Source: Glandiceps talaboti
Lineage: Eukaryota > Hemichordata > Enteropneusta > Spengelidae
Assembly: GCF_964340395.1 (NCBI RefSeq)
Contig: NC_135555.1
Span: 8,158,431 to 8,222,430, forward strand
Length of the DNA: 64,000 nt
Reading direction: 5' to 3'
A program made the translations under genes and the position numbers. The notes below the pieces were generated by a model, which worked only from the letters and a program-made list of their open reading frames with translations, had not been told where the DNA came from and ran no database searches. Within the stretch, counting starts at the first letter, position 1, and every line of letters begins with the position of its first letter. Positions 7,173-49,065 of the stretch are shown one piece after another.

Positions 7173-10010
7173 ATGTCGACTAGTACGAGCGGAGACTCTC
7201 TACAAATCGTCCCCAGGGATGAATATCCGAAACTCGTAGATTTCTTACGAGGTCAAACGCCATCATCTCTAAAGGTAAGTATTAGGGTCGTTTTACAGTT
7301 TCCAGTCAGGTTTGTAAAAATGTCACCAGATTCAAGGGCATGAGTATTTCTTGGAAGTATTGAATTCAACAGTTTCTATGTGACTGTCAAACTTCACCGA
7401 CCGCAATTGGGCTTGGGGCGGGGTTAAATTCGTCACTATACAATAACATAACTCTGGAGTCGAGTAAGTCTCACAGTTACTACGAGGCGACCACCGTTTG
7501 CATCAACCGTTCATGTTTTTACGACTTCTTCTCGCCAAGTTGTTGAGCAAGTTGAGGAGTAAACGGGCGCGAGAGGGCGTGGGTTGGTGGGTTTTAAGAA
7601 AGGGTAACTATTTTCTTCATTCGCAATGTATGATACCCAACTGTGGTACTAAACTGTGAGTGGACGTTTAATGGTAACAATACTGTGTAGGAACTAGACT
7701 ACATATACCTGTCATCTCAATAAAAACATTGCCAGGGAATGAAATTGCAGCAGAATGTATCAACATATTCTGTTGTTTCAACACAAAAACAGGACTCACA
7801 ATGTGCCATTCAGCACTGGAGATTGGCATTGTCGAAATTTGGTTGATTGGTCCATTTACCCATTCATCCATTACACCAGTATACTGAGTATGTCGACTTA
7901 TGGGGCCACGTGATTTGCAAAGTTATTTCTATTGAAAAATGACGTGTTCACACGGTAAATCACACGAAGGATTCCAATGCGCATTATTTTGTGTCGGATT
8001 TTTTGATATCATGGCTGACAGTGACGCCATTCAAATAATACACCTTCAGAGCGTGGCAGTTTTTAGCCACACTTGCAAATTGATTGATGAGTTTATTCAT
8101 CATATATAATGGGGTCAAAGAATGCTTTGTCTGGTTGGTTCTTTGCTGGTCCTCTCACAAATGTCCCAGTGTATGTATAACAAATAGTTATTTATTTATT
8201 GCCAGGTCATAGGTCACCTCAACTCTAATATCAAGAGTGAGAAATGGACAATGTCAACGTATGTTGACAGCTGGCCGAATCCATCGGTCGTTGTTTGTGT
8301 AATTCCCACAGCAGAAGGAGTAACTGTGAGTAAATCACGATCATGTATCACGTAGCAATACAAATATGAACGCAAGTATCTAACTTTAAAGGAACCAATG
8401 TCTAAACTAAAAATTATTTTACAAAGTTCGATTAAGTTTTTAAGTACATTGCAAGACTTACCTACTGCATATCGTTACACAGAACTTGTTACTTATATTC
8501 ATGAAGGTAACATCCTTGAAAAACAACAGCATGCCTTTCAAATTATGAAAATAGATAAAAATAAACATTTTATTTATTTTTCTGTATCAGGAAGGAGACC
8601 TTGAACTCACTTTCCATTCCAATGATGCTGATAAGCTTAAACATGTACTGTCCACCTCAAATTTGTTAAACTGGAGATCATCAATGGTAATGAAAGGTAT
8701 GTATGTAAATCAGTGCTTTCGGTTACTATGGCTACAGGTACATCACGAGATTTCTCAGTATCGATTGCCACTACAGACAGGTACAAATGAATATGAAAAC
8801 ATGTGGTATCTCGTTTTTGTTGTCGCTTGTCTTGCCTGTATTTCTTTGATTATGTATTTGTCGGTCTGTTTTGATTTTAGTAAACACACGTCAAAAGTTT
8901 TTCGTCGTCGTCGTAATTTTGAAACCTAGACTATCAGTTCTTTGCCCACGAGTTGCCTACAGTGTTTTGTCTATGTTTGTAACTTTTGTACAGGAATCGA
9001 TGGTTCATTCCTTCCCGTTCTTAAAGAAATCAGCCCAAATTACTCGGCAGTTATTGAGGAAGTGCGTGCAGACGTTTATACATGTACAGATGACAGCAAT
9101 TTATATCGAGGGTAAGTGACCAACAAATTATCAGTGTTTATTTGAGTAGTTGCACAATGTCCAAATATGGTATTGCTGTGCACTTTGAAACACCTTTATG
9201 CAAATTCATAGCTTATATTGCCATTGATGGAGTTGCACATTTTAAAGTCTTCAAAATTTAAATATTAACTCCCTTTCTCTCGGAGCTGAGGGAGCCCTCA
9301 TTAATTATAGGGGCGGGGATGAATTCGAGCCCATATCTGTTCCATAAAATATGACCCTCCCCCACTTCCATTTGGCTAAAAAGCGAAGTTAGATACCACA
9401 AATAGTCAAATTAATCAAAATGGAACCCTTCCATTATTCTATTTTCTAAAATACATCTCTCCCCCAAGAACAAATTTGTAACAAGTGAACCCATATACGC
9501 ACCCCCCCCCCCCCCCCATTTACTGAAGGCTTCCTAAATCGACCTCTCCACTTCTACACAACAAACATTTCACTTTTCTCTGTTACCATGTGCAGAGTGG
9601 TACCGGATGGATATCAGCTTTCAAGTCTAAAGAAAAGTGATATTGACAGTGTCATGAAAGTATGGAAGTTTGGAAGCGACCGTTTTCGACAGAGATTTCT
9701 AACGCAATTTGATACACATTTTAACGTCGGTGTTTTCAGTAACCAAACAGGTGAATTGGTATCATGCGCTTTGCAGCAATACTTTGGATCAATCGGGACG
9801 GTAAATACGGTTGAACCTCATCGACGTAAAGGGTTGGCGAAGATAACGCTCTCAGATGTGACTCGCAAGGTTCTCGACTCTGGCGAGACCGCATGGTGTC
9901 ACGTACAAGTCGTGAAAGGCAAAGAAGTATCGGAGAATATGATGAAATCAGTGGGGTATCAGAAAACAGATTTACAACATGTCTGGTTGATTTGCAAACC
10001 ACAAACATGA
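7173..10010 (+). CDS. glycine N-acyltransferase-like protein, copy 1
   Basis: Five exons join in frame: 7173-7274, 8206-8325, 8591-8696, 8994-9111 and 9596-10010 (286 codons plus TGA). The product resembles the GLYAT/GLYATL family, which conjugates acyl-CoA to glycine or related amino acids in vertebrate mitochondria. An N-terminal GLYAT domain covers about residues 1-148 (DSWPNPSVVVCV is typical). A C-terminal GNAT/FR47-like domain covers about 150-286, with the acyl-CoA pyrophosphate-binding motif RRKGLA at 225-230 and a Glu at 222 near where the GLYAT catalytic glutamate lies (my alignment by eye). Length is close to the roughly 296 residues usual for the family. I chose the ATG at 7173 on family length. 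The frame stays open upstream, and an ATG at 7101 would add a basic, Ser/Thr-rich 24-residue presequence. A near-identical gene follows in tandem. Confidence 0.85.
9286..9540. mobile_element. TIR (MITE-like) element in intron 4 of GLYAT-like copy 1
   Basis: The left end reads GAGGGAGCCCTCATTAATTA followed by G-rich sequence. The right end is a C-run followed by TTTACTGAAGGCTTCC, which is its imperfect inverted complement. The same element sits at the same intron position in copy 2 (14680-14886), and a longer relative occupies 39868-40645. It is non-coding and non-autonomous. Confidence 0.6.
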
Positions 10011-13444: not shown

Positions 13445-15364
13445 AACTTAAAATACTCCATATGCAAGTAGGTCCAGCCTTGCCATAGATTGTATGTTGG
13501 TTGGTTGGTAATGACAGTTTAGACACAAAACAGTGTTCATCTAGTGTGTATAAACCACCATGTGTTACAATAGAGGAAGAGGGTGGCGAGTGGTGGTGAC
13601 GACGACGTCACAAAGGAGAAAGAAGCTTTAATGAAGGTGATGACGACGATGAAAAAATGGGAAGAATGAAACTAAGGAGATAGTGGATAATGGGAAAAGA
13701 TATGGGGATATAAAGGGAGGGGAACAGTTACAGGAAGGGAGGAATAACAGGAATAAAAAGAATTTAGTTGGAAAGTCACCAGTATTTCATGACAATTTGA
13801 ACTTATCTAACCTTCAAGGAATCATCAATGTCCAACCTCACTTTACAATGTTCGATAAAGTCTTGAAGCACACTACAAAAGTTGCATATTGTTACATAGA
13901 ACTCACTTGTTATATTTATGAAGGTAACATCCCTGAAAACAACACCATGACTTTCACTCAACTTAAAATTGTGAAAAAAAAATCTGATAAAAGCCATAGC
14001 CAACATCTTATTTATATTCTTATCAGGAAGGAGACCTTGAACTCACTTTCCATTCCAATGATGCTGATAAACTTAAACATGTACTGTCCACCTCAAACTT
14101 GTTAAACTGGAGATCACGTATGATGATCAAAGGTATGTATGTAAATCAGTGCTTTCGGTTACTATGGCTACATGTACATCGTGTCTTTTCGTAGTATCGA
14201 TGACCACTACAGACACGTACAGATGAATATATGAAAAAATTGTCGTATCTCGTTTTTGCTGTTGTTTGTCATATCAGTATTTCTTTGATTATGTATTTGT
14301 CGGTCTGTTTTTATTTTAGTAAACACACGTCAAACGTTTTTCGTCGTCGTCGTTGTAATTTTGAAAGCTAGACTATCAGTTCTTTGCCCACGAATTGCCT
14401 ACAGTTTTTTGCTATGTTTGTAACTTTTGTACAGGATTCGATCGTTCATTCCTTCCCATTCTTGAAGAAATCAACCCAAATTACTCTGCACTTATTGAGG
14501 ATTTGCGTGGAGACGTTTATACATGTACAGATGACAGCAATTTATATCGAGGGTAAGTGACCAAATATGGTATTGTATGCACCTTGAAACACATTTATGT
14601 AAATGCTGACCTTATATCGCCAGTAGTTTTTACACACTTGAAGGCGGTCAAAATTTCAACCATACTCTTTATTCTGGAGCTAAGGGATCCCTCATTAATT
14701 ACAGGGGGAGGGAGGGGGGGGACAAGCCTAGCCTGTTGCATAAAATGTGACCCTTCCCCAATTACGTTAAGCTAAAAAGCAAAGTTAGATACCACAACTT
14801 GTCAAATTATGTGACCCTATTTCTAAAGTATACCTCTCCCAAAGAACAAAGTGACACACCCTGTAATTACTGAAGGCTCCCTAAGTGCACCTCCCCTGAA
14901 AGACCATTTCCACACAACAAACATGTCACTTTTCTCTATTACCATGCAGGGTGGTACCGGACGGATACAAACTTTCAAGTCTAAAGAAAGGTGACATTGA
15001 CACCATCATGAAAGTATGGAAGTTTGGAAACGACCGTCTTCGACAGGCATTTCTAACGCAAGTGGATACACATTTTAACGCCGGTGTTTTCAGTAACAAA
15101 ACAGGTGAATTGGTATCGTGGGCTGTGCAGCAATACTTTGGAGTAATCGGGGCGGTAAACACGATTGAACCTCATCGACGTAAAGGGTTGGCGAAGATAA
15201 CGCTCTCAGATGTGACTCGCAAGGTTCTCGACTCCGGCGAGACTGCATGGTGTTACGTAGAGGACGTGAAAGGCAAAGAAGTATCGGAGAATATGATGAC
15301 GTCAGTGGGGTATCACAAAACAGATTTACAACATGTCTGGTTGATTTGCAAACCACCAACATGA
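11826..15364 (+). CDS. glycine N-acyltransferase-like protein, copy 2
   Basis: Five exons join in frame with the same phases as copy 1: 11826-11933, 12955-13074, 14027-14132, 14435-14552 and 14950-15364 (288 codons plus TGA). Exon 1 has two extra codons (RDSDSLQ against GDSLQ in copy 1). The GNAT domain keeps the RRKGLA acyl-CoA motif and the VEPHRR context. Intron 2 is about 950 bases against 265 in copy 1, because of inserted sequence that carries a (GTTCGT)n array. Substitutions against copy 1 are scattered and leave the frame intact, so both genes look functional. As in copy 1, an in-frame ATG 72 bases upstream (11754) would add a basic presequence. The role is inferred as acyl-CoA:amino acid N-acylation; the substrate cannot be read from sequence. 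Confidence 0.85.
12046..12086. repeat. (GGT)n followed by a G-run
   Basis: A short low-complexity tract in intron 1 of GLYAT-like copy 2: about ten GGT units and then ten G. Confidence 0.85.
13396..13444. repeat. hexanucleotide array (GTTCGT)n
   Basis: About eight tandem copies of a six-base unit lie within the extra part of intron 2 that distinguishes copy 2 from copy 1. Confidence 0.9.
14680..14886. mobile_element. TIR (MITE-like) element in intron 4 of GLYAT-like copy 2
   Basis: The left end, TAAGGGATCCCTCATTAATT plus G-rich sequence, is the inverted complement of the right end, CCTGTAATTACTGAAGGCTC. It is at the same intron position as the element in copy 1, and 20-25% of its interior has been lost or changed. 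Confidence 0.6.
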
Positions 15365-16165
15365 GTCAGAAGGCTGAAATATACAATGCACAGAAATTTG
15401 TGTCATTTTGACAGTCAGACCTTTAATATAGCAGAGCACATTTGTGATCTTCAGGCTTTCAAAAGACCGAACTACCATTAAATCAGGAAGCTATGAATGA
15501 ATATCTTGGGGTATGTTTATTTTATTTGTTTAGTATTTGTAAATAAATTCGGTAAAGTATGAATAAATTGTCAAATCCAATTGCTCACCAGAGTCATAAT
15601 GTTGACATTGCATTAATGTTGAAAGCTAATAAAAATGAACGAAAACTTTTGAAACGCGATCTAGACATCAGGACATCTTTGTTGTTTGCAAACTGTCTGT
15701 ACTGTTTGTTAAAGGTGTTTAATATTGTTTGCCCTTTCAGTCTTTGTCTCTTGTTACGAAGAGAAGAAAATCTGAGACTTCAGGCTGGACATACTGGAAA
15801 TATCGGTAATGGAGTAAGGGCCATGGAATGGTCCAAAATAAATATCAACATATAGGCGAATCTGACAAGCTAACCGGCCTCGATAATATTCATCTCTACA
15901 CCGGTATCGAGTGAAAGTAAATCCTCGCTGCCTATTTGACAAATTTCCATTGTGCATGCGACAGCTATCTACTACCAAAACACGGTCAGAAACAACGAAA
16001 CATTGAACACGTGGCAGTTAAATGAGGATAGCACACTATCTATTTTACTTCAAGACAGTTTTGTCTTTAAACTACCAAAAGTTAACAGCAATAATATATA
16101 TTCCACAACATGTAGAACCCCAAAACCTAAATTCTATGAAGAAGGCAAGTTTAAGCGTTTAATTC
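15365..16165. other. 3' flank of GLYAT-like copy 2
   Basis: The first 500 bases match the 3' flank of copy 1 (10011-10470), with AATAAA-type signals near 15540-15565, which marks the 3' part of the duplicated unit. After about 15850 the similarity stops and no gene is seen. Confidence 0.45.
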
Positions 16166-16169
16166 GGTA

Positions 16170-16656
16170 TTGAAATGTTATTTCTATGGCATAACCAAGG
16201 TCTCTCTTCAACGTGTCCAAAATACAGCAGCTACGATTGTGTCACGTACAAAGAAAACAGATCACATCACACTCGTTCTTTCTGCTCTACACTGGGTACC
16301 AGCCCAGTACAGGATGATTCAATACAAAGTACTATTGATTACCTACAAGGCACTCAATAACATTACTCCTGGTTACATAGCTGACTTGATTAATACTAAA
16401 CCCTCAACTCAATCTCTTCGTTCAAACAACAAGTCTACCTTCATGTACCCCGTTGTAATACAAAGCCACAGGGTGAGCATGCGTTCTCGCGAACAGCGCC
16501 AATCTTATGGAGCAGTAACTTCGTTCATCACACTGTTGATGAATTCAAGGGTATCAAGACGCGTCTGTTTGCAAGAGCTTTCTGACTTTGTACTACGATC
16601 TACAGCGCCATAAGCTGATAGAACATTACTTCACATTGGATTTTGGTGCTATACAA

Positions 16657-18166: not shown

Positions 18167-18893
18167 ATGTCAGGAACAGTCGTGCGAACGTTCGTATATT
18201 TATTCATCTCTTTAGCCATATTGACAGATTTTGTTGAGTCGAGCGCTGTGACCGATGTCGACCTTATCAGGCACATTATAAAGGACAGTTTCATAATACC
18301 ACACACGGAAACAGAATCCAAACTTGACGTTGTATTTGTTATTGATCGATCGAAGAATACCCCAGGTGTCATGGACAATATTTTTGCTTTCCTAAAAAGT
18401 TTGCTGGTACGCCTTCACGTAGGTGAAAACAACACTAGAGTTACTATTATCACATACAGTACAGCGAAAATGGTTGAATTCGATTCGATAAACATTGCAA
18501 ACAGAGATGTCACCAACATATTCGATAAATGCGAATTATTCTTACAGATTGACGGGATACAAAGAGATTCGTACGGTTACACCGCTACAATTGATGCTGC
18601 ATTACGAAAAGCTAGGAGCGTGTTGATAAATTCGCGACCTGACGTCAGGAAAATAATGTTTCTGATAACAACCGGAAAATCTAACATTGGAGAACATACG
18701 GTAGTTGTTCGACGCGAAATACAGTCTTTGATGTGGGACGAAAGTTGGAATTCTCAGCTAGACGTGTTCGCTCTTGGTATCGGAGAAGAAGTAGATACCG
18801 ACGATTTAGAATCAATCGCTTCTAATTCTAGATTCGCCTTATATATCGACACGGTTGATAAGTTTAAAGATCTTACCTTGTCATTGAATGAAG
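18167..18893 (+). other. gene A exon 1: signal peptide and VWA domain
   Basis: A single exon encodes a hydrophobic leader (VRTFVYLFISLAILT) and then a VWA fold starting LDVVFVIDRSKN. The metal-ion-dependent adhesion site looks degenerate. The DxSxS motif reads DRSKN (residues 60-64), and the second-strand TDG position reads TTGKS (168-172). The conserved Thr region reads SYGYTATIDAAL. Ligand binding through a divalent ion is therefore doubtful. The exon ends in phase 1. Confidence 0.8.
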
Positions 18894-21800
18894 GTAAGTG
18901 AAATGTGGATTTTTGTTCAGAGATCTCTTAGAATAACTGTTGTATTTTCAAGTTTCAAGGTGCTTTTCGAAATGTATATTTTGGTCTCTAAAAACCCGAT
19001 TACAGGACCAGTGTTGTTCCAGATGTACATGTTAACTTTGTGTCACGATTTTCCAGTAAATTTTGAAAACCGCCCACCCACTTGACGGTGTTCAACTTTT
19101 ATTTAGTAAACATCTTATATTATTTGTTTATTTGTTTTCAGATAAAGTAGAAATTCACTGGGAAGTAGTGGAATCAGAGAAGTGTTTACCACTATGCAGC
19201 AACACAGATACTTGTATGTGTTGCTTAGACACAGGAAATTACCAATGTGTTGGTGATATGGGTTACCAAGGCAACAGAATACAGCGTGATGGTAAGAAGT
19301 GAAATCTTCCATTCCATATGTTCATCACTTTTCTGTATTATTATTGCAGATGTACTAGTCATGTCAATTTGAAACTTTAGTCGACTAGTAACTGCTGGAT
19401 ACTGGTACTTATTGTACACCTATTGGTAGGTATAATGAACACATATTGCCTGGCCATGAGGGCTATAGCACCCGTTTATTACACCCTAGGGACTGTGAGT
19501 TACCAGAATCACATGCTATTTCCCGAGGCCAAAGGCCGAGGGAAATAGCATGTGATTCTGGTAACTCACAGTCACAAGGGGGTAATGAACGGGTGCTATA
19601 GCCTGAATATAGGACAGGCAATATGTGTTTTATAATATACCTCATGCTGTGAACTCGCAGTGGCATACAACATCGTCAGAAGCTGCCATTTTGACCTGCT
19701 GTGAACGCGCGGTGGTCACGTGACCATGTAAAAGTTGATGGAACTATTTCCCTAGGGAAATAGTCATTCTATTTTCCTATCACGTGACCAATTCTAGCGA
19801 ATCATGGCACAGCATTATCACTAGGTATATTTTAATGTACTATATTACATGTACAGTGGATGAGAAATTGTTGATTTTGAATTTATGCATAGTTTATGAA
19901 CTCTGCTGTATGTTTTTTTCTACTTTTACAAAATAATATGAAATATCATTGACCACGTCTGTGTCTATAACTCAATACTTTGAGAAAAAAAATGTGTAAA
20001 ATGTATATTGTGGTACATGCAGAAAATGTATGGTATAGTTAGTACACAGGGGAAGTGGTTTCCAACCAAACTGGGCAAATACAAGTAATCACTACATCTC
20101 ATATACCAGTGCATGCTGCTGTCTCTCCCCAGTACATGGTGACATTTCAATATACAATATTGTGGAAGCAACATACACATATGCAGACTGGAGGTGATGA
20201 TATAGTAATTACTTGTGATTGTTTTTATTTATAAATCATTTCATGCACTTGCAGTAACATACATTTTCCAATTTTCTCTCTTGATTTTTTTGCAATGTAG
20301 TTGAATTTAAAATACAGACTTGGCCTATGTTGTTTCATATTGTTTTTTAAGTACAAAATATAGTTATGTTGTTGATTAAAAGCCCCAAATAAATACCCAT
20401 TTCCCATCAATATGGTCATTTTAACTACCAGTTTATTTCCATAAAATAGCTTTCATGTATCAGTAATTCAAAGAGGAGATGGAACAGCTGTCACCTCACA
20501 TGTAAACATTAAATATGATTGCTTATGTTGGGCGATGACTATTGTATCTAGTGCATTCTATCTATGTGATTTAGCATAAAGAACAAATTTACATTTAAAT
20601 TTACCAGATTTTTTTCTGTCATGTTACATTTTATTTGAATTAAATGTAATATGGCAGAAAAAAATCTGGTAAATTTAATTTCTCCAATATACACAGGATT
20701 TTAAAAATGTAAAACATAAATCTATTGAAATGGTTAGTGTTGAAAAAATGACAATAAATAGAGACGGCGTGGTAAAATGTACAGAACAGGGAAAAATAAA
20801 AATGATTAAAACCCTTACACATTGAGCTTTTTGGTAAAAACTGTGTTTAAGCACTGACAGTGATTGAAAGGTAATATTACTACAAAGAGAATAAAGGTTG
20901 TTCAAGCATACACAATTGAACATATACAGTGGCTCTCCAGCTATGCTGAACAGATCGAGGTCAAAGGTCAAATCATCTTTTGTTATCTATGCCATATGTG
21001 GAAATAACATTAGGTTGTGTAATTATTTTGAGCTCCTTCTCAACCTAGCAGGTCATAGATTTTGTAACATTTAATTAAAAATTAAAATTGAAAAACACCC
21101 ACATCAGTTTTTTTGCCTACCAGTCCTTGGTCCTGCAATGGTGTAATGTAATGATAGGATATTACAATTACCAAAACCAGAATCAGTTATAAAAAAAACC
21201 TCAATTCAGTCAATGGTTTCATTGTCTTTATTACAGAAAAAATTGTAGATAATTTTGTCTTCATTGCTTAATAAGTATCTTGTCATTGTATGCAATTATT
21301 ATATTTTTGGTCATCATTATTTAGGTAGATGATTCGTTTATTGACTTTTGAGATGATGTATCACTACATACATTGCTTCATGTTGTAACTAGTAGTAGAC
21401 GTTATTCCCCAATATTTTTCTTCATCCCTGAGCCAAGGAAAATATGAGTGACCTAAGGGGCTTTGTCACTATGAGTCACTAGACACGTAGTGACATAATT
21501 ATATCAGCGCCAGTAATATCAAAGAAAATTGGGGAAAGTAATGACAATTTTGAACATTTTGATGTGACTCATGTTGTACATATCCTTTACGTAATTATTC
21601 CTTAAAATTGTATTTATGATTAGCAAGAGTGCCAACAACAATGAAACGTTTAGTGTAAGTTTTATCAAGATAATTTAGATATGGATTACATGGGATTAAT
21701 AATAATAATAATAATATATTTTATTCCATTTGTATAAAAATGCATTGGAAATTGGTTTTTCATGTGCACTCACAAAGAGAATTGAATAAATATATCTGAT

Positions 21801-24800
21801 TAGGTACTCATTCGATACCCATAAGTGCAGTTGCATCAATCATAGTCACATTTTTTCCCTTATCCATTGTTGGGGACCAGCTTTATAACTAATAGATTTC
21901 TTTTTCTATCATTTCAGTATGCCAGTGCAACCTGTTAGGTACTGTGAATGCCAGTAATGTTTGTGAGAATGACAATAGCCAGTGTCCATGTAAACCAAAC
22001 ACATACACCAGAGACTGTAGTCAGTGTAGGGATGAAACCTACATGTTTCCTACAAATGCTGATGAGGTAAGTTTTCAGAAGAAAACTCCCAATTCAGTGT
22101 CTGTTCATGGACTCTTGTCACGTTATAAAGACTTGCTTTTTTATCATAAGGTTTGATTGCATCATTGTTGTTGGAACAGTGTTTTTAACATGTGAAAATA
22201 CAGTACGTCACCTTCCTTGAATATAACATTTTGTTTGTATACTTTTGAAATGCTTGAACTTCTTCATGTGTGTATTTGTCAGCTTGTCTTTTTAAAGTTC
22301 TACTTGTTTTATGATGCTGTTTTTGTGCGTGTTTTATCTTTTTTCTGTCTGTTTTAGCTATGGGATGCCTTGAGCACTGTTGCAGGTTTTTTCTTTTCCC
22401 AAATAAAGTTTAGTAATAATAATGTCTGCTTAAAAAATCATTTCATAGGTTATAATTGAAAGCATGTTAATCTTTCCAGGATTGTTTACCATGTGGTTGT
22501 GATTATGGTGGATCAGCATCATTTAACTGTGATAAAGTGTCTGGTTTATGTGATTGTCGACCAAATGTGACTGGACAATATTGTAACCAAGTAGATGAAG
22601 GATTCTATTACACTGTATTGGATTCAAATAGGTAAATGTAGATAAGTATTGTTGGATGAGTCTATTACCTATGTAAGAACATTATTTTACAGTTTTAGAT
22701 ATAAAGTATAGAGAGGTTGTTGAATAGAAATTGATACTTGACTCCATTATTAAGTTACCTTTTTAGAATCTACCATTGAAATAACTATGTAGCTTTCATC
22801 TAATTTCTGAGATGTCGTCAGCCTGATGTCATCTAGATTGGGAGGTCACCCAACCAAACAGCATAAGTTGATGTCTGAGAGATTCAGATTTGAGTTACAA
22901 ACATGGACTGGGCTGTTTCATATTGTTTTATTCAAGTACAAAAATATAGTTGAGTTGTTGTTTAAATTAAAAAATCCAAAATATACCTATTATCATCCAT
23001 ATTACCACTTTGATAAACTAGCTGAAGTTGGTCAATATGCAAATTAAGGCTTTATTTGGGATTTCTATAAACAAAGTGTTCTGTTTGACACAAGGTAGAA
23101 GACCATCATGCCTTTTATAACAGGTAAACACCAGCTTGCCATTTCTATTTTCAGCTATGATGCGTGGGAAGCTCAGACCAACTGTGAACAATCATCTTCC
23201 TCACCTGTAGATTATACAGGTGCTGGTTATTTGAGATGTTTTGAAGGACAGTACGTACAGTTTGATAATGTCATGGCTTTCTCACAGAAGTCAGATGCTC
23301 TGTAAGTATACCGGTTAACTTTATTAGTATACACAATCATAGGTATGTACATTTACAAGTATGACTTCACCTCATTATTTACAATAGAAAAAAAGTATGA
23401 TCGTTTGTACTGAATTTCAGGACTATTTATCATTGACGACAATAAATTTCTACAACCAAAACTGTTGTTTTCTTGCTCTGGAATAGTCAGATAGAGCGTA
23501 AATAATTTACCTAGTATATTTGAGCTATTAAGTCAGCTTCAGCTGTTATTGGGTATGGTTCGACGACATATTCGACTTGTCATATTGCAATAAATCTTTA
23601 GACTTATATCAAAAGAATGACCGTTAGAAGATATTTTACTTCTTAATTATCACAAAAATCTTCCCTCTTTACATTTTATAATGACCTACAGGAATTTCCG
23701 TCCAGTGCTGAGATACTCGTACAACTCCAGTGAAGACTGGTTTGTAGCTGGTTTGTCAATATCTGTAACTGGAAACACATTACAACAGGACAAACTGCAA
23801 GAGTTGGTAGATTACATGGTACGCGATGATCAGCCAAGTGATAATGCAACAACAAACCAACCACCAACCTTTCAAACCTTGTGTACACAACCTATTGATG
23901 TCGTGCAAACTTTTACTGTTACATTCACACCTGGTGAGGGCGTTTCATGGACCCCGTCTACAGGTGGAGTGTTGAATATTGACAGACTATGTAACTACCA
24001 TGCTAGACTTGAATTGACTTCAGCAGGCAATGCTAGTAAAGATATTATCATTCACACTTTGCTTCTAATGCCAGTTTTATCTGACTATCAAGTTTTTCAG
24101 ATGGGAGGTTAGTAAAACCTTTCAGTTCACTACTTTATCAATACATATGATAATATATATTTATTATATACATACATCATTATTGTTTTATTGAAGTCAC
24201 AGAAAAATTCAAGGAAGGTCCAATATATGTTGGAATTTCTCAACAAAAATGAATATGCCTATGATGACAGAGATTGGGGAAGCATGACAATAATGTTATT
24301 CAAATGCGAGTTCTATGCATATCATATAGCTCTATTTGCATAATCTCATGCATTTTGACTTTCATTATTATTCCAAATATTATCATTCATATCATTCATT
24401 ATCATTCATATCAAGTGAGCTAAAGGGCCACATGTCACAGGCATTTCCCAGCTGAATGAATAAAAATATTGGAGAATAAAATAATCATACCTTTGCAAGT
24501 GTAATGTAAGAAAAAAAATTCTGAATGTGAAATTGGCTTATACATATTTTGAGCACCACAACGGCAAGGACTTGGCTTATGTGTGGTATAATGTTTTAAA
24601 CTTATAATTTCAGATGCAGAGCAGCAAGTCCTGTATGATGAATGTGTACATAATTTTAGTAGTATTTCAACCTTGCAATATGCCAATCAAGATAAGACAT
24701 GTCAAGAATTGTCTTTCTCTGTGTCAGCTGAAATCAATAATGGAGGCATTGGTAAGTCAACTTCTGCAATTTCTTCCAACCCAAGTTTTGGTGTGCATGT

Positions 24801-27800
24801 TAATCATGTCATCCACATCATAGAAGCAAGTTGTATGTGGACATTGTAAATATTTGTAAGATTACTTGAATTATAAACATGTTTATTCTATCAATTCTTC
24901 AGCTCATAAGTTTCTGACACTACATAAGATTTTGTTTCTAATTTTAGAGATCAATGCTCCTGGAGAGGTGACTGTTACAGGATACACTTCTAATCAAGTA
25001 ACACTTACCTGGGTAGCACCAGCATCAGATGATCAATTCGATGCCTATGAATTGGTCTATTCACCAGTTGATGAAACTCAGCACGAGACTCTGACACTCA
25101 CAAACAACATAACATCTCACATGTACACTGAACTCCAACCAGGTGTAATGTACACATTTAAAGTGTATACAACAGTCGAAGGATGGAGAAGTTTACCATC
25201 TACTGTACACCAGAGAACAGGTTTGTAAAACACAGTTTTATGCATAACATTTGATTATCTAACTTTTCCCTCTCAAGAATATTAAACTGAAACATCAGTT
25301 GCTTACCAATTATACCCAGTATGCATAAAATAATTATAATTAAGGCACAATTGTTCCATTTCTTTTCAATGTTGCATAATTGTACAACAGTGGCATCTAT
25401 ACTAAACTTTTGGAGAGAAGTAGTTTTACTCTCAACTCACTTTAATTTAGGTCTCAAATTCATTGAAGTTTCTGTTTTTATACCTATCATCCAAACCTCA
25501 GATATTTATGTGAATTTGTTTATGTCTAAAACATTCTGTATTAATAATTGCACTCATAGAGTCAAAATATGTTCAGAGAATTGATTCTCAATTCTCGATG
25601 CTATCTTGCCAGGATCATCAGTATAAATTCTACAACTTAAATTAAAATCAGGATTGAGTGAATTGATCCATTTGCTTCCATGTTTTATCAAAGATGTGGT
25701 GAGATATAGATGATGGAAAGAGATCTCTCCAACGTCTATGGTTTTATCAAAATATAATGTCAATTTATTGTAATTGATCATGATAACTAATTTGATTTAC
25801 TAGTTTTGCCTGTAGCTTGCCAAGTAAAAAACTTTGAGTTTTGGGTGAAAGTTGATCATCTTTACAGTATTACAACTTTTTTTCTCAATTCACTCCTTAA
25901 TTTATGCATTTTACCATCAATAAAGAATTATTTGGCAACATCACATAAATATACTTTGCAGTTTTTCACAGAATGTTTTTCTCATTAAGTGCCAAAAAAC
26001 ATACTCCTATCAATTTCTTGTTTGGGTGTAAGTCAGGAGATGTTAATTGTACCGGGGTAATTGCAAAGATTGAGTAAATCAAGTATTTAAGTAGAAATAT
26101 GATTATGTTCAAACTATTATTCATTTCAGTACCTGAGTTACCTGGTGAGATCACTGTGGGTATAGTAGGTACAGTTACCATACAACTGAGTTGGGGATAT
26201 CCCAGTGGTACTTTTAGTAACTATGAGATCACCTACACTCCTGCTGGTGGTGTGACTGCAATACCTATCTTGGTTTCCAACAGCACTGACTCTTACACTT
26301 TGCTAGGCCTGACACCTGGTACTGTTTATAGCATTGATTTCCGGACTGTGAGTGGAACTGAAAAGAGTGACCCAAGGAGCATTGAACAAGCCACACGTAA
26401 ATTATTGATTCATATTTCTATAATTATGTCTCGTTATTCTCAGGGTTATTCTATTTTAATCTTCTCACTATTTATTGAAATGAAAGTAATGTCAAAATAT
26501 AGCACTTATAAGTATCAAAACTGGTAAAAATCATGTTGATCATTTTGTGCTCAATCGATAGTTAAGGTTAGGCATTGCAAATTGTCTTTTTGTATAGATG
26601 TATGTGAATCTTTTTGGAAAATTAAATTATGTGACTAAAGTCAAGGAAACGTACTAGGCAACTAATTTGCACATTGGTCTGAAATATGTGGGTATGTTAT
26701 TTTCATGTCTAGATAATGAATCCCCCCTCCTATATTAATGCAAATTATATCATGGTCAGAAGACAATTTCTCTAATAAGAAATTGTTTTGATATGCAAAG
26801 TAGGTAAGACAGTTATGAGTTTAGCCAAAATCATGAACTCCAGAATTACATATCAGATTGGTCTGAAATTTTGGTAGGCATGTTTCTTGTGACATGCTAA
26901 TTTACAATTGTTCGTAATGATACTTAGAAAGCAAGCAGCAGAATTGTTTGGTATTTAGAAGTTCCTATGGGTATCAATTTAATAATGATTCAACACAAGG
27001 TGATCTGATCCTGTACATAAAAATAAGGGGCAAAAAATATAATTTTTGGTCAAAAACATTCAAGATGCATGAGTTTATAAGTTTTTTTACTCACATGCAA
27101 ACCTTTTATTCATAATCCTCAAATTCTGAAGTCTGACCAAAAATTGCATATATTATACCCAATTTGCATAGAGTGGCAGGTGATTTTGCTTATTAAATAT
27201 CCCAAACAAAGTTTCTATGTGTGCGTATGGTATCTACTTTATTAAACATTGAAGTAATTACATGCTATTGGCAGAACTCATGCTTGCTTTATAGGCATGA
27301 AACACATTTAAACGATTGAAATGACATAATTATAATGTATATTGTTGGAAACAATCCATCAAGTATATTAACAACATGTGAACTGAAGATGATTTTTAGT
27401 TCCATTGAAGACAAGCATCAACTACAGAAACTTAAATTTAGAAAACATTTGCCAAATAGGTAACAGTGGGTAGCAGCGTCCCAAGGGATATGGTGGCTAC
27501 ACTGTAGATAGTGATATGATAAATCATTAATCATTTCAGGAAAGATGATCTGATTCATGTTGGAATGTACACACTGTCTTAATTGTTTTTTATGAAGTGT
27601 ATTCAATTTATGTTAAACCCTTATTAGTTTGGAAACGATAATGTAAAAGTACACTAATTTAAACTCCGTAATTTCTTTTTGCATATGTATTTCATCCAAA
27701 CCATCAGATATGTTCAAAAAGCCCTTACTCAACAACATGGCCAATGACTATACAAGTTGTAATGCAAAGTAAATTGTGATAAAAATTTTAATTACTATTA

Positions 27801-30800
27801 GTACGTATCTTTAGAACAAGATGACATGCATTAGTATATCTTACTATAAAAATGTTATGATTTTGTTTTTTAGTTGAACAAATGCAAGGAACAATTTCAA
27901 TGGCACAGTATTCAACGACAACCATCACAATTTCATGGGTACAAGCCACTGGTCTGTTTGATCAATATGTTGTGACATATACACCATCTGATGGTAATCG
28001 TGCACAAGAGACTCTCGTATCAGAAGCTATTTTCGAATTAGAATTTCATGATCTGACTCCAGGACAAGAGTATAAATTCAGTGTGGCTACCAAGGCAGGT
28101 GATACAAAGGGTTCACCTTCTACCAAGACACTGAGAACTAGTAAGTGTCCAATGCTCATTTAGTTCTGTCAGTACAATCATGTTACCAATTTTAATGTAT
28201 GATTGTATAATTTCAACAGGGTATAACAGTTCATTTTCTTTGCACATACAGAACCAATGTCTGTATCCTCTCTGACATTCAATGCAGCTACAACAACAGA
28301 ACTGTCATTCTTGTGGACAGCACCCTCTGGTGGCATTATAGATAGTTACGAGATTAAATACGATCCAGCTAATGGTTTTAATCCATCCCCAATCATCGTG
28401 GATGAATCCATTTCATCATACACATTGGCTGGATTGATACCTGATACTTTGTACACAGTTCAAATTTTCACACTCAGTGGTAGTGAGAGAAGTGGTGTAC
28501 AGAGTAGTGTCCAGCGCACAAGTGAGTATATTATGATGATATTCAAGTTTGGCCATGTAATCTAGAAATGTTCCCATGGTTAAAACATGTAATTATTCAA
28601 TATAATCACACTGGTGAAATGCCTAGAGAAGTCAAGTAGATTTTATCTTGCACTTCATGTCTTTTATCCAAAACACCAAGCCTTCATTTTAGTTCATCCT
28701 GGATGGTATAACAATATTCAAAAAACTTTTTCTTTTAATTTGTAAATTTCTCATTGCACTATAGTTGTATAATTTCTCATTGTCATGTTACGCAAGTGAA
28801 TGAATATTGTACGGTAAATCAACCAGTTTCATATGAAAATGTTTGAATAGAATATAATATACCAACATTAGCATATTATGCAAATGAACCAATTTTATAT
28901 GCAAGTAGATGAAGTGTATGCAAATAAGCAACCAAGTACTACAGATCCATGAAAATTTAGTTCTTGTACAACAGACTACACAAGTCATTTTAGATGTTTT
29001 CAATCAAAGCGTTACAAACATTGAAGGAATGGTCCATTTAAGCTGTTGTAATAAGAGATAATATAGCCATTTCTCATCTATATTAAATATCTTTGAGGCC
29101 TTTTTGTCTGTCCAAATATTGACAGTTCTTTGTCCTATTACTATAAGAGATCAAAGTTTGCTATTTGAATTAATTTTCTTCACCAATCAGGTCAAATAAA
29201 TGGACTGGATTTGTTCTTCACTGACATCCAGACCAATAGATTGACAGTGCAAGTGACACCATCCACAGAGGCATTCAGCCACTACACTGTGACATACACT
29301 CCACTGGGTAGTACTGTCAGTCCTACTAACCTTTACTCTGGTGATGGCACAGAGCTTGTGTTGACAGGGTTGACTGGTGGCAGACTGTACACCGTTGTTG
29401 TCAGTGCCTACACAGACCAAGGTGTTGTTGTTGGTGAAAACGTACAGAAATCACAGAGAACATGTACGTTTTAAATCTTTCAGTCACCTGCTATTTTTAA
29501 TATGGTAGTACCATTATATGTTAAAGTTTTGGTACTAATATTAGTCATTCACATTTTCTAAGATTATTGTGTTTTTCCTGTGATGTACAACCATAAATTG
29601 TTGATCAATTTTAAACCCCTTATTAACGTCTATGTAATTACAGCCTAAAATACAGTGTCAGCCTTTGAAGTGTTAACTACTTTAATACCAATAAAGACCA
29701 GTGTACCAGTTTAGAGAAGTCATACCTCAAGCCATATACATAATTTATGGATTCTGCTATTTTGAGATGAACACCTACATAAAGAATCACATACACTACA
29801 AGGCATTGAATGTCAATTTCAACCAATCAGATTTGCCAATCACAATGTGGTATACGGAATACATCTGATTGTCTTTCTACTCACTCAAAATGAAGTTGAA
29901 TATCAAGGGCATTATATAAAACCTGTCAGCTTGACTTAAGAAGTTATTTATATGTCAATTCCATGATGAATATGTTATTAGTCTTAATTACAATTGTGCA
30001 AATGACATGTAATATGAAATTCAATGTACTTCAATGGCATTAGAAATTCTCTACATAAATTAGTTGAAAATTCATTGCTAAAACATTTCCTTGCTAGAGG
30101 GGTAGTTGTTGATAGAGGGAGCACTTGCAATAGATGTAACAGTGCACTCATACCTTCAACATTTATCACAGGTTATCTAGCATATAATATGCATACAATG
30201 ATCAACAATTAACAAACCAGGCGGCTTTCTAGATTTTACGAGTGAGTAATATTTTGCACACTTTTTGATATCAAATTCTTGCAAATATACACTAACAGAA
30301 ACTGTAGCATATCTGCTTTGTAAGCTCAATAATTTAACGTAAGGATATCTAAGCATTAGTGTATCATTCACTAATTGGAAGCGTTTTTGACATTTAATAT
30401 TGTATACTGGTGTGGAAATCTCCCAGTTAAAGACAGGACAAAGTGGACACGAGTTGTGCTATTGTGATGGTCCTGCCCGTCACAATAACATGTCAAGGAA
30501 TGATTGTAGTCAATAAGAATGCACAGTACAAGGATATAAAAACAATACAAGTATGCCCTAGATATTGGCAATGCAAAACAGCTGTTCTCTGCTAATGGCA
30601 CTCTAACGGCTGTGTGTGAGTGAGTCTAAGTCTGTGGATAGGTTTTATTTGTATATTGGGATTTCTGTGATGCCAAAAAGAAATTTTTAATCTTGTTTTC
30701 ATTTAATTGAAAATACCATGAGGGGAACATCCCCTTTACCAGCAAAATGCAATTATTGCACTTTCTTATCAATCCTTATCAGCTCATTACCATAACTAAG

Positions 30801-33800
30801 TGTTTGCTTTTTGTAATTACATCTTATAAGCCTGAGTCATCGCTGGTACAGATGCTAAGTCAAGACTGAAATGCTGTCGACCGAATGTGTCAAGTACTAG
30901 TGAGAGTGTGTTACTCCGCCGCGAGGCACAACTGGCTTGGGTGAAAGGTCACGATTTGGCTTGGGTGAAAGGTCATGATCCGAGGGTTACTTTCAAGGAG
31001 TGAATCGTTTGAGTCAAGGGACGTTATCAGCTGTTACAACTTTTATAATCCTATTACAGTTGACATTGCAAACAGATTTAGAGATTGTCAACAACCCGAC
31101 TTGCTTATTGATGAACTCGGGTTATCCGTAGTTTGGTTTTACCAAGGTGTTTCTGACATGATTTTTAATTTAATTGTTTATAATTTTATGACTTTTCTAC
31201 AGTGCCAAATCCACCATTGAACCTAACAATTAGTAACTACACAAGTACCTCCATTCCTATCAGCTGGACACAACCCAGTATTGGTGACTATGATGGTTAT
31301 AATATCTACTACTCCCCAGCTGATGGTGCATCTAGTGCTGTCATGAACATTGGCCCATCAATTACATCATATTCATTATCTGGACTTACACCTGGTAGAG
31401 AGTACTTTATATCTGTGGTGACTAGAAGTGCCAATATGAGGAGTATTAGAGTGAGTGAGACTCAGATTACAAGTAAGTAAATTTGAAAGGGGAACATCAT
31501 TATTTTCAATAAATGAAGAATGTGAAGAATGTGAAGAATGATTTCATGGTTTACATGACTTACATTACATGCAATTCAATGAAACATCAAATTGAAGTTG
31601 TCCCTCATTTGGGGATCTTTGGCCACATTGCATCATACGTGCCTGTATAAATGTTTATGCAATAGGTGAACAATGAATATTCATGACTTCTAAGTGCCTG
31701 TTACCTTTAGTGAAAACATCATGAATTGTTCACCTATTGCATATACATTTCTGCTGACTCCCTTGAGGCAGTGTGGCCCATGGCAAAGATCTCCAAATGA
31801 AGGACAACTTTATAATAAACTAACCGAATGTTTCTCTGAAATCATATGAAATGTATAGGCAATGTAAAACCATGAAATTGTGAATCTCCAGAACCAAAAG
31901 TTCATGAAAATGCTTTAATTTTATGTTTGTTTCGAACCACATTGTACAATCCACCAGATTGATGTTTTAGCTATTATGTGTTAACCCTGCAGATGTGTGC
32001 ACGAGTAAGTAACTTAGTAAGTGTGTATGGAGTCATGTCTCTTTTTCTGTATTTGTCTGAATAATATTTATTATAATATTACATGCAAAGAGCATGTGCA
32101 GGTCGACATGATTTAGATGATTTCTATTCTTACAGACATGGCTGATTATGGCACCTATCTAAGGTAATAGTATGTGTTGTGTAACTAATTCTGTTTTTTA
32201 TTAGTTGCTTACCAATTCCTTTATCAATAGTCTCAAATGTTCTATTTTCTTTTGTCAGAACCAAGTGCTGTACATATTATGAATGTTGTTGAAGTAGTGT
32301 TTGATAGCATATCCATCACATGGGAAACTCCTGATGGTGACCATGATGGTTTTGATGTATCATATGGCCAGCTTGGTGAAACACCAGCAGTAGAGAGATA
32401 TGAATTGGATGATGATAGAGAACTGCTAATGAGTGGTTTGGTCTCTGGCACCTCCTACCAGATTGTCATAGTAACAACAAGTGGTGATGAACAAAGTGAT
32501 GCTGCCACATGGAATATCACAACAAGCTCAATAAGTAATTCAGATCTCAATATTAAAGTTTCCAAATGAGTGCAGTGTATGGGGAAGGGAGATTATGTAT
32601 GGGTTAAGCAACATTTGACATGAATGTATATCACATTGATGAGTATATGAGGCAGAATTAATTAATCAAAAACTTCGACCATCTTGTCTTTACAGAAGGC
32701 GCCTTCGGTTTAATCTCACAGCAATTGTTTTATCATTACAGTTGATACTTTAACTAAGCACAGTTTTATGATATTTTATTAAATATGAATTTCAATGCTC
32801 TCTCATGTTGCTTTTTTCATTCATTTTTCTGACTGTTGAAATAGGAGCAGCTAGCTTTACACAGTGTCCAGAAGGAGAAGTGTTGTCTTTCAATGTACCA
32901 CCAGATAGTGATACTGTTCAAATTGATGTTGATATTGAAGCTGTTGATGGGAATGGAAACACCATTAATCATGACATTATTGGTGGTAATATAGATATTC
33001 CTGGAACTTTACAATTCAGTGAAACTTCCAAGAATGGAATAGTTGTCAATGTCAGGGCTGTAGATGATAATCATGAAATTTGGTGTCAATTTACAGTAAA
33101 AGTGCTTGGTAAGTGTACTACAACCATTTGCATTCTAACAAATAAACATCAAGAAGTCATTTCTTCACTAAATTCTCCTGTCTACATATCCATATCTACC
33201 AACTTTCACTTTCTGTTAGAAATTGTGTTTATATTCATCCAGTCCATCTAATCAAATGGAGTGATTAACACTATAATTTAGTCACTGACTCATAGTCATG
33301 TTTTCTTACTTTCCTGTCATTTAGATCCCCATCCACCAATTATCACATTATGTCCATCTGATCAGTCACAATTGACATCACATGATTCAGTGTTAGTTGA
33401 GTGGGATGATGCAGTTGCTACTGACAACACAGAGCTTTTATCAGTCACAACAGACCGTGTGAGTGGAAGTGTCTTTCCTGTTGGCACCAGTACAGTAACT
33501 GTAACAGCTATGGATACATCTGGGAATACAGCTACCTGTACTTTCGTTATTACAATTACTCATGGCTTAGGTAGGCAGAGTATTATGATTGATGTCAGTT
33601 AATAATAATTACATGATTTATTTGCGATGCGTACTTGTTTCAAGTGTCCAAAATGGTTCACGGACATGTCATTTCAAGTTTTTTATTTAAAATAGAGACA
33701 GAGATAGAGAGATAGATAGATAGATGACTTGAGCAAGTCTTGATGCATTCCTATTTACCCAGTTGAACAATATATAGGATTTTTCTCTGTCAATTTCAAA

Positions 33801-36569
33801 AGGATTTTTTAAAAAATTAAAGTGATTGTCATGTAAACCTATCATGTGTCCTTCTACTTTTCTTTAGAAAAATGTTCTGATTTGCAAGTTCCTTGGTATG
33901 GAGCTTTGTCCTGTGCTGCAACAGAAACTGCCTTTCAGTGTGTGCTAAATTGCAAGGAAAGATATCAGCCATTTCGTGGCAGAGATGTTTATACTTGTAT
34001 TAGTAAGATATGGAATCCAACTCAACCACCTCGATGTGTTCGTAAGTAAATGGATAACCAAAAAATGAATAATTAAAAATATGGCTGTTGTTATATGTTG
34101 ATAATGGAATTTGTTTGTACAATTTTGAAAACCAGAAAACTACACAACAATGTGTTTGGTTTAAATATTCTACCAGATATCTATTTGGCTTTTGTGAGAT
34201 ATGTCTTTTTCATGACTGTATTTCCTCAACAATTTCATCTTGATGATGGCAAGTTAAACTTGCAGTGCAGATGAGATATCAGTGTGCATTTCAGATTTTT
34301 AATTAAAGCAAGTTTAATATAACTATTTGTTAACTTGTAAAAACATATACCAAGTATTTTTGAATACAGTAAATAGCAAAAACCTGAAAGTGATATAAAT
34401 GGGTGTTACAGGTTTTAAATAATTAATTTTACATGCATGTGGTGTGGTTTCATTTTTGTAGGGCTTGCACCTGGTCATGATGTGGGATTGGCTGCAGAAT
34501 TCACCTATCCAGGTGTGTGTGAATCATTCACTGACATGCAAAAGATCATTGACAACTTTCATGCCCGCATAGATGATCATGACTTGTGCACTCGTGGAGA
34601 AAACAGAGTATGCAATGAAAACAGTTTCATATTCACATGTGGAAAAGACAGCAAAAGACGGAAGCGACAGGCAGATGATTTAGTTGTCACAGTTGAGGTC
34701 AAACTGTCTAATACTGCTAACAATTCTGAACTTGAAGAAGAATCATTCTTTGATATCCTTGATACAATGCAGAAAGACTTGAATGAAACAATGAAGAGTA
34801 TTGAATACCTGGTGAAAAATGGATCCTTCAGTTTGGAAATCAACAATCAAACTATCCTCTGTGATCCAAACTCATTTAGAATTGGTGAACCAGTTTGGAC
34901 TTGTTTTAAAGGTTATGTTTCTACATCTGTTGGATGTGGTAAGTTTTTTTTTTAAGTTTTAACTTATAGTCCTAAATTAATATTTAGCTTGTACATGCAT
35001 TTAACTGTAATTGCTATTATGTAACAAAATATAGTTTTATACATACAAAGGGAAACATAGACTCAGCCTTACATTACTTGATGGTATTCTTCTGATTACA
35101 TTTGTTACCAGCAGTGGAACTATACTGGTGTATATTTTAAATGTTCTTTTAAATTTTTAGATAGGTGGCAGTATGGTTAAAGTATATATGTAAAAAAAAA
35201 ACTTAACAAACACAATCACATGACTTTTAAATTTGAAAGAGAACATATATGCCAGTATTGAAAGACTGGACAGTGTACTAGCATTAGTCTAGGGGAGTAG
35301 TTACAAGCTGTGATGGACAGCAACTGATTTGCATATAGATCTTTGCATAATTCATGTTGAAATTATTGTTACATTTTCAGTGGCCTGTCCAGTGGGTTCA
35401 TACTATGATCCATCAATAACTGATTGTATATTCTGTCCCGTCAATGAGTTCCAGAAAGAGGAAGCACAATTGGAGTGTGAACAATGCAAAGATGGCAAAT
35501 ATACAAAAGGCATTGGCAGCTTCAGGGAATCACATTGTAAGTTCAATGTTACGATAATATAGCGATACAAACTCAATAAGTGTCACCATCACCATATGTA
35601 ACAGTATACTGTAAGTGTACTGTAATATTTGTTCAGATTATGGAAAAGTTATTCACACAGACATAGATCAAATGTCACGATCATATTAATATCATGCTGT
35701 ATGAAAAAAATATTGTTCATGGTTCCAAGAATCAATAGGACAGTATTGTGTGATCAATGTCCGTAGTAGATGGATAAAATTTTACATTTTTTCCAAAGTT
35801 ATTGTTCCTAATATCATAATTAGTGTGGTCCATACTTTTTTTAACAGTTGATGATCACAAATATTTGTTATGTGTATGTTATCAACTTGTAGGGCTAAGG
35901 TCTGAATGTGAATGCATGGTCTAGGTGAGAATGAGTGTTTTCCCCACTAAGCTTAAAAAGTGTTGGTTTACCTTGGAATATTCACCCATTTGGATCATCT
36001 ATTATTTACATCTTCCTATAGTGTACATAGAAGGTTCCATTGGTAACAAACACATAAGTCTAGCATGGATTGCTGAAATTACAATGTAATATTTTTAATT
36101 TTTAGGTAATTTTTGTCTCGTGCTGAAATATTGAATTCTTTTTTTTCTTCTAGGTTTTACTTTGGCAAGTCCTAATTTCAACAACCTGATTGTGATTGTT
36201 GTTTTCACAGTTATAGTAGTTCTCATTATTATAGCTGTGGTGATAATGGTAGTTGTTACATTAAGAAAGAAAAGAAGGGCCAAAAATAGAAGGGATGAAG
36301 TGGCCTATTCCTGCAGGAACCAAGGATATTATGATGAAATGGATGAAGGAAAACTAAAACGAGATAACACAAAGAAACTTGGAAAGGCTATGTATGATGG
36401 AGAAGTTGAGGACATTGCTCCCACAGCATTAGGAGTGAAATCAAGTGATGATGAATTAGTGCAAGTGAACAATGAAAATTTGAATGAGGACATTGAATTT
36501 AAAGGCATTGATCTTGCATCAGTCAATACCTTCATGGAATCAAAGCAGACTGCTGAAGAAATAGTGTAA
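18167..36569 (+). CDS. gene A: VWA / laminin IV-B / FN3 / HYR / CCP single-pass membrane protein
   Basis: Twenty exons join without a phase conflict into 1835 codons: 18167-18893, 19142-19291, 21918-22066, 22480-22631, 23155-23301, 23692-24107, 24614-24751, 24948-25220, 26130-26396, 27874-28140, 28252-28521, 29191-29463, 31203-31472, 32259-32534, 32845-33108, 33325-33570, 33868-34041, 34462-34938, 35381-35536 and 36154-36569. Order of parts: signal peptide 1-27, VWA about 53-235, Cys-rich 243-292, laminin EGF 293-393, laminin beta IV-B 393-626, seven FN3 627-1258, two HYR 1259-1428, CCP 1429-1486, a module with RRKRQ 1487-1645, GCC2/Eph-receptor-like Cys module 1646-1697, transmembrane helix about 1709-1734, cytoplasmic tail to 1835. 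The HYR-HYR-CCP-Cys order recalls SVEP1/polydom, but the laminin block and the membrane anchor do not. I infer a cell-surface adhesion or matrix receptor. No vertebrate orthologue is recognised. The start has A at -3. Confidence 0.85.
19438..19630. repeat. long near-perfect foldback (MITE-like) in gene A intron 2
   Basis: The arms begin CACATATTGCCTGGCC on the left and end GGACAGGCAATATGTG on the right. They pair through GGGCTATAGCACCCGTT and TGTGAGTTACCAGAATCACA to a small GGCCAAAGGCC apex. A second, shorter inverted repeat with CACGTGACC ends follows at about 19712-19792. Confidence 0.8.
20595..20677. repeat. hairpin-forming inverted repeat
   Basis: TTAAATTTACCAGATTTTTT on the left is matched by AAAAAATCTGGTAAATTTAA on the right, with a short AT-rich loop. 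It lies in gene A intron 2 and is non-coding. Confidence 0.75.
21400..21545. repeat. imperfect inverted repeat, probable degenerate foldback element
   Basis: The left arm TTATTCCCCAATATTTTTCTT pairs imperfectly with AAAGAAAATTGGGGAAAGTAA at the right. Inside, GAGTGACC and GTCACTATGAGTCACT motifs also pair. It lies in gene A intron 2. Confidence 0.5.
21918..24751 (+). other. gene A exons 3-7: laminin EGF modules and laminin beta IV (type B) domain
   Basis: Five exons encode two laminin-type EGF modules and then a globular segment that follows laminin beta chains through the whole region before and across domain IV (LF). The order of landmarks is the same: a last EGF module ending CDCRPNVTGQYCNQVDEGFY, then TGAGYL...EGQYVQF, a LRYSY segment, RLELTSAG, LLLMPVLSDYQVFQMGG, and YDEC...CQELSFSVSAEI at the end. 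In laminins the domain is followed by more EGF modules; here the reading frame passes straight into FN3 modules. The comparison rests on remembered laminin beta features and was not run as a search. Confidence 0.75.
26640..27240. repeat. dispersed intronic repeat (ATGCAAAT / TGGTCTGAAAT family)
   Basis: Intron 9 of gene A carries phrases such as CAGATTGGTCTGAAATTT and ATGCAAATTA that recur in the gene B intron at 49080-49560. It is a diverged copy of a dispersed family with no open frame. Confidence 0.45.
31595..31810. mobile_element. foldback MITE-like element in gene A intron 13
   Basis: A 216-bp imperfect palindrome. The left arm AAGTTGTCCCTCATTTGGGG pairs with the right end CTCCAAATGAAGGACAACTT. 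An inner pair, ATGCAATAGGTGAACAAT and ATTGTTCACCTATTGCAT, is perfect. It is missing from the matching intron of gene B (43508-44042), so it inserted in A after the duplication or was lost from B. Confidence 0.7.
32845..34041 (+). other. gene A exons 15-17: two HYR modules and one CCP/sushi module
   Basis: Exon 15 (QCPEGEVLSFNVP ... WCQFTVKVLG) is a divergent HYR module. Exon 16 (PPIITLCPSDQ ... FPVGTSTVTVTAMDTSGNTA) is a clear HYR module. Exon 17 has six cysteines in 58 residues and a CCP-like ending (CISKIWNPTQPPRC). All are phase 1-1. The HYR-HYR-CCP order is that of SVEP1/polydom. Confidence 0.75.
34462..36569 (+). other. gene A exons 18-20: cleavage-site module, Cys-rich module, transmembrane helix and tail
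   Basis: Exon 18 encodes a 159-residue module with KRRKRQ at about 1551-1556, a furin-type site, followed by acidic N-glycosylatable sequence. Exon 19 has the C-P-x-G-(S/T)-Y-Y spacing of GCC2/GCC3 or Eph-receptor-like repeats (ACPVGSYYD ... CEQCKDGKYTKG). Exon 20 has 26 uncharged residues, then RKKRRAKNRR as stop-transfer and a tail of about 100 residues with two tyrosines in a GYYDEMDEG context. The stop is TAA at 36567. Confidence 0.8.

Positions 36570-49030: not shown

Positions 49031-49065
<35 letters not shown>

Follow-up and report, generated by a model that had tools for sequence, protein, structure and literature searches.

A five-exon laminin block, made up of laminin EGF (LE) modules and a laminin IV-B (LF) domain, is located within gene A, which is predicted from its gene model to encode a single-pass membrane receptor, and this laminin LE-LF block was very probably brought into the receptor gene by exon shuffling and retained there under selection. 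The window analysed here is a stretch of DNA of 64,000 nucleotides; coordinates given without a contig are positions within it, and exon borders are those of the gene A model. A preliminary description had proposed a laminin IV-B block at 21918..24751, and these two ends are exactly the start of exon 3 and the end of exon 7 of gene A. It had also placed the block between the VWA domain and the FN3 repeats of a non-laminin protein, where exons 3-7 (hereafter the cassette) do lie in frame in the gene A model.

The gene A model extends from 18167 to 36569 on the plus strand and comprises 20 exons encoding 1835 residues, with GT-AG borders at all 19 introns. Exon 1 (18167..18893) encodes a signal-peptide-like start, recognized by eye, and a VWA domain (Pfam, 70.1 bits, residues 54-236). 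Exon 2 (19142..19291) is short, Cys-rich, and of phase 1-1; it is EGF-like by eye and has a counterpart beside a VWA paralogue on contig C8, and no Pfam family was found over it in either the 806-aa 5' product or the full gene A protein. Behind the cassette, exons 8-14 (24948..32534) encode seven FN3 domains, one phase 1-1 exon each (Pfam fn3, seven stretches, 271.9 bits), followed by exons 15-16 (32845..33570), the former HYR-like by eye and the latter with a HYR match (49.5 bits, one stretch, residues 1347-1424). Exon 17 (33868..34041) is Sushi/CCP-like by its Cys pattern, seen by eye only; no Sushi match was returned, even with the exon alone at E<=1, and LCCL (14.1 bits) stayed below its cut-off. 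No domain was assigned to exon 18 (34462..34938), the structure model of which is of low confidence (mean pLDDT 42.4); it carries a basic RRKR site, also present in the gene B copy described below, which we take to be a putative cleavage motif of a furin-type protease. Exon 19 (35381..35536) encodes an ephrin-receptor-like Cys-rich domain (Pfam Ephrin_rec_like, 35.5 bits), and exon 20 (36154..36569) encodes a hydrophobic membrane span (by eye), a cytoplasmic tail, and the stop. Pfam detected in the gene A protein neither Laminin_N nor any laminin family besides EGF_laminin and LAMININ_IV_B. Dispersed repeats are present in introns 2 and 6 of gene A; since the intron 6 repeat lies within the cassette, no transposon route is claimed. 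Intron 2 also contains an inverted repeat (19461-19603) with 70-base arms, 91% complementary, and a 3-base gap.

All five cassette exons are on the plus strand, each preceded by AG and trailed by GT. Exon 3 (21918..22066, 149 nt) encodes an eight-Cys laminin EGF module similar to LE4 (EGF_laminin match); exon 4 (22480..22631, 152 nt) encodes a truncated, LE5-like module and the start of LF, matched by EGF_laminin and by LE5 of the laminin beta-2 structure 5lf2; the N-terminal, middle, and C-terminal parts of LF are encoded by exon 5 (23155..23301, 147 nt), exon 6 (23692..24107, 416 nt), and exon 7 (24614..24751, 138 nt, phase 1 out), all matched by LAMININ_IV_B and exon 6 by 5lf2 as well. Joined together, they give 334 aa with the module order full LE, truncated LE, and LF, after which FN3 follows, not LE. 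The LE module before LF is truncated, without the 7-8 disulphide: the EGF_laminin profile ends at 40 of 49, and no Cys lies between cassette residues 85 and 111, in a region aligned with LE5 of 5lf2. The landmark FQMGG listed in the preliminary description is present, but its last letters had been read into the splice donor, and the spliced form is FQMG-DAEQQ.

In a Pfam profile search, the exon 3-7 translation matched LAMININ_IV_B at 35.8 bits (two stretches, cut-off 27) and EGF_laminin at 60.6 bits (two stretches, cut-off 21), which bears out the laminin assignment made earlier. The IV-B match reached 32.4 bits in the 806-aa 5' product, covering profile positions 22-210 of 210, and 29.9 bits in the full 1835-aa gene A model. 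According to phmmer, 17 distinct PDB sequences matched the cassette at E<=1; the top one was 5lf2 (E 2.5e-22), and laminin beta-1, agrin, and netrins followed, mainly via EGF modules. The laminin IV-B match of the cassette is not explicable by chance. When the IV-B profile was run exon by exon across the genome (E<=0.001), it gave four matches, all on contig C1, and none at the window or at the related locus on contig C11. Single exons are weak IV-B matches, so the profile score depends on the joined exons, and since this search missed both the window and C11, absence in it carries little weight. The structure model of exon 6 alone was also of low confidence (mean pLDDT 33.0).

Only three of the 19 gene A introns are not in phase 1, and all three are inside the cassette, which is the pattern expected of a foreign block. 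The intron between exons 7 and 8 has 196 bases, GT-AG borders, and matching phase 1, and it is here that a gene boundary error would have to lie, with VWA and LE-LF belonging to a secreted protein and the FN3-membrane part to another gene. The unspliced frame of exon 7 (24592-24849) does continue to a stop at 24849, but the splice borders and the agreeing phase of this intron argue for one gene, and we regard a boundary error as improbable. From splice sites, phase, and the selection described below, we infer that exons 2-3 and 7-8 are joined in the mRNA of gene A.

With the cassette as query, a protein search of the genome to which the window belongs (590 Mb in 47 contigs) yielded 43 matches at E<=10, and beyond the window all five exons were matched only at C11:4239524-4235728, on the minus strand. 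The exon lengths are identical in the two loci (149/152/147/416/138), and no indel separates them; 274 of 334 residues are identical, 141 nucleotides differ, and all 20 Cys of the cassette are common to both. In gene A and in the C11 gene alike, the introns that flank the cassette are of phase 1, so that it shows both features of a shuffled block, symmetric phase and a likely source of identical exon structure. The introns of the two loci differ in length, and their alignment fades a few bases beyond the exons; because the introns hardly align, a single copying event cannot be demonstrated.

The C11 locus also gave matches to LN (154.9 bits), LE modules, and Laminin_B/IV-A (46.5 bits). Across C11:4258675-4222791 (minus strand), the order is LN, LE, IV-B, LE, IV-A, LE, and then frames that are coiled-coil-like by composition only; for one of these frames, Pfam returned neither a laminin family nor any match above cut-off. 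To judge from these domains, the locus looks like one predicted laminin-type chain that combines LF with L4 (IV-A). None of the 59 Laminin_G_2 matches was near the locus, which counts against a laminin alpha chain as far as this one profile goes. A likely donor type of the cassette, going by exon structure and sequence, is therefore to be seen in a chain of the same genome.

Relatives of gene A were also compared. The VWA search of the genome returned five matches, namely two in gene A, two in the paralogue at C8:7031464 and its second exon, and a weak one on C11. In the C8 paralogue (62%), the VWA leads on to an EGF-like exon and then to an ephrin-receptor-like exon (33.7 bits), not to FN3, and the cassette was absent in the 8 kb read there (best match E 3.9); since its architecture differs, it provides no clean empty site for cassette insertion. 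Exons 12-20 of gene A recur as a tandem copy, gene B (42273-50862), with 69-91% identity over the aligned blocks, including the introns. Neither VWA nor cassette was found in gene B, which holds only the 3' half of gene A and was for this reason rejected as a clean empty site. The dS between gene A and gene B ranges from 0.03 to 0.46 over exons 12-16 and gives no date for the copy. The 3' half of gene A has additional relatives at C8:7008101-7014900 and on C23.

The preliminary description had proposed shuffling from a laminin beta gene; a laminin-type locus with the same exon structure does occur in this genome, but the close relative of the cassette is the C11 chain rather than the canonical beta-like gene of C1. 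That the cassette came from a canonical laminin beta gene, or was an ancient part of the receptor family, rather than from a later C11-related transfer, appears to us improbable. IV-B marks laminin beta chains, and the C1 gene is beta-like, with LN and IV-B matches; however, the C11 exons are 72-90% identical to those of the window, whereas the C1 matches fall in the LE part with 34-44% identity, and the LF intron positions of C1 are unlike those of the window, so that this gene is not the close relative. The LF exons were matched only at the window and C11 among the 43 cassette matches, and none were present in the C8 VWA paralogue or gene B (the relatives at C8:7008101-7014900 and C23 being left out of this comparison).

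The cassette has been under coding constraint since the split of the window and C11 copies. Between them, dS is 0.373 and dN 0.103 (NG86), giving a dN/dS of 0.275 (95% of 500 bootstraps within 0.19-0.40), and at this dS the cassette has no stop and no indel. In a neutral-branch simulation, which splits dS between branches, models no indels, and used 1000 branches per distance, a branch at 0.187 (half of dS) acquired a mean of 7.2 stops and 112 residue changes; none of the 1000 was stop-free, and none had as few as the 60 residue changes observed in total, or fewer. Branches of 0.15 substitutions per site behaved likewise (0/1000 stop-free). At 0.10, 1.1% of the branches remained free of stops and 20.8% had no more than 60 changes, so that at this distance only the missing stops argue against neutrality. 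It is improbable that the copy evolved neutrally over most of the period after the split, though recent silencing is possible. These results bear on the reading of exons 3-7 as a decaying laminin gene fragment in a gene A intron, skipped or unexpressed. Partial copies do occur at this locus, as the adjoining 5'-truncated tandem copy of gene A demonstrates, but the intact frame, the dN/dS, and the stops gained by every neutral branch at 0.15 and 0.187 speak against decay, as do the splice sites and phases of exons 3-7, which suit both neighbours; we give this reading little credence.

Under exon shuffling, a genomic block of five exons with phase 1-1 borders (LE4-like, truncated LE5-like, and LF) would have been copied together with its introns; the donor would be the gene of a laminin-type chain like the present one on C11; and the landing site would be a phase-1 intron in the gene of a VWA/FN3/HYR/ephrin-receptor-like single-pass membrane protein. 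The direction of copying, from laminin gene to gene A, is presumed because the laminin context is the usual one.

According to PMC5338690, which describes rat laminin beta-2 in crystals, LF packs firmly on LE5 and barely on LE6. As LE5-LF packs as one body, the cassette could plausibly fold with no laminin EGF module behind it, and by analogy LE4-LE5-LF could be a self-contained unit ahead of FN3. The same source predicts Glu, Glu, and Asp as calcium side-chain ligands for all LF domains. The calcium and Cys positions were compared in a four-row alignment of window, C11, C1, and beta-2, of which the C1 row was hand-joined from open frames and is approximate. The calcium side-chain positions are D/W/H in the window, D/W/D in C11, and E/E/D in both C1 and beta-2; the Glu/Glu/Asp set is thus not found in the window cassette. 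Furthermore, no Cys of the window or C11 aligns with the Cys657-Cys685 beta-sandwich disulphide of beta-2. The calcium positions and the unaligned disulphide count against a simple retention of LF chemistry. The 657-685 pair may nevertheless have its counterparts in two other cassette residues, Cys 214 and Cys 250, and Cys 111 and 129, which are common to C11, absent in C1, and near the ion loop, may form a disulphide that replaces the LF ion.

In the receptor, LE-LF would form a globular module that faces outward beneath the VWA tip and serves in adhesion or as a spacer, and the chance that its role is adhesive seems to us about even. The VWA, FN3, HYR, and ephrin-receptor-like neighbours, together with a likeness to polydom/SVEP1 (PMC12549020), suggest cell-matrix contact by analogy. 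As LF has no assigned function (PMC5338690), contact of the basement-membrane type, as proposed earlier, is a conjecture.

Several other features were observed in the window and the genome. Two similar open frames at 9489-10010 and 14900-15364 matched an FR47-like acetyltransferase family (49.2 and 49.8 bits, cut-off 22.1) and may be two glycine N-acyltransferase-like genes in tandem. The open frame at 16155-16613 resembles, by eye, the reverse transcriptase end of a non-LTR retrotransposon, a reading for which Pfam gave no support. A tandem array of a 51-base unit (7.8 copies) at 61606-62003 sits in a 302-aa minus-strand frame (61362-62270) and would be a 17-residue repeat if coding. The mitochondrial contig C40 (51222 bases) carries COX1 three times at a spacing of 15435 bases, and the mitochondrial circle seems to have been assembled as a tandem concatemer. 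In its cox1 and the stretches read as nad2, cox2, and atp6, the codons AAA, AGA, and AGG are absent, and ATA stands at positions where Ile is expected from conservation. According to PMC2697986, ATA encodes Ile in echinoderms and hemichordates, and AAA is absent in Balanoglossus carnosus. The codon usage of C40 agrees with an ambulacrarian host, likely an enteropneust hemichordate. Two hemichordates described in PMC11175523 have 23 chromosomes, and in this genome contigs as far as C24 are 15 Mb or longer.

LF is conserved, yet according to PMC5338690 it has no assigned function, and its internal position in laminin chains makes a clean excision hard to design. A transplant of LF that arose in nature and was maintained by selection, in a genome that also contains a gene of the source type, suggests that LE5-LF can move as a unit, and gene A would be a simpler protein in which to seek an LF partner. 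We tentatively suggest, at somewhat less than even confidence, that LF left the laminins for a membrane receptor in which it was selected for, that a chain of the source type (LF and L4, without LG) is present in the genome, and that both may share an LF partner. If so, the pair of receptor and C11 chain would allow the job of LF to be probed outside the laminin trimer. It is also a case of exon shuffling in which each target exon can still be paired with its source counterpart.

The cassette shares with LE5-LF of laminin beta-1 and beta-2 (5lf2) the order LE, truncated LE, and LF, and a sequence match over most of the unit. Unlike in these chains, FN3 instead of LE6 follows LF in gene A, the calcium ligand positions differ, no LN was matched by Pfam, and the host protein is not a laminin. 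The nearest named family to the gene A receptor is polydom/SVEP1, with which it shares VWA, HYR, and ephrin-receptor-like domains (Pfam) and an EGF-like exon (by eye), whereas the seven FN3 domains, the membrane span, and the LE-LF cassette set it apart; pentraxin and Sushi were without a match in the full gene A protein (Pfam; Sushi at E<=0.05). The architecture of cnidarian polydom/SVEP1 relatives itself varies (PMC12549020). Among the laminin-domain literature matches listed, none described LF in a receptor with VWA and FN3. The cassette is a case of domain shuffling among matrix and adhesion proteins, itself a known process. Perlecan is a secreted proteoglycan that resembles gene A in having a laminin short-arm globular domain within a non-laminin protein. 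According to PMC4224354, it combines Laminin B domains (L4, IV-A) with laminin EGF modules, and it thus has L4 where gene A has LF. Finally, weak LF homology is described in PMC5338690 for the first ~200 residues of the first insert of laminin alpha3 and alpha5, which, like the non-canonical C11 chain, makes the earlier statement that IV-B is confined to beta chains too strong; this insert differs from the cassette in being much longer and in belonging to a laminin alpha chain.
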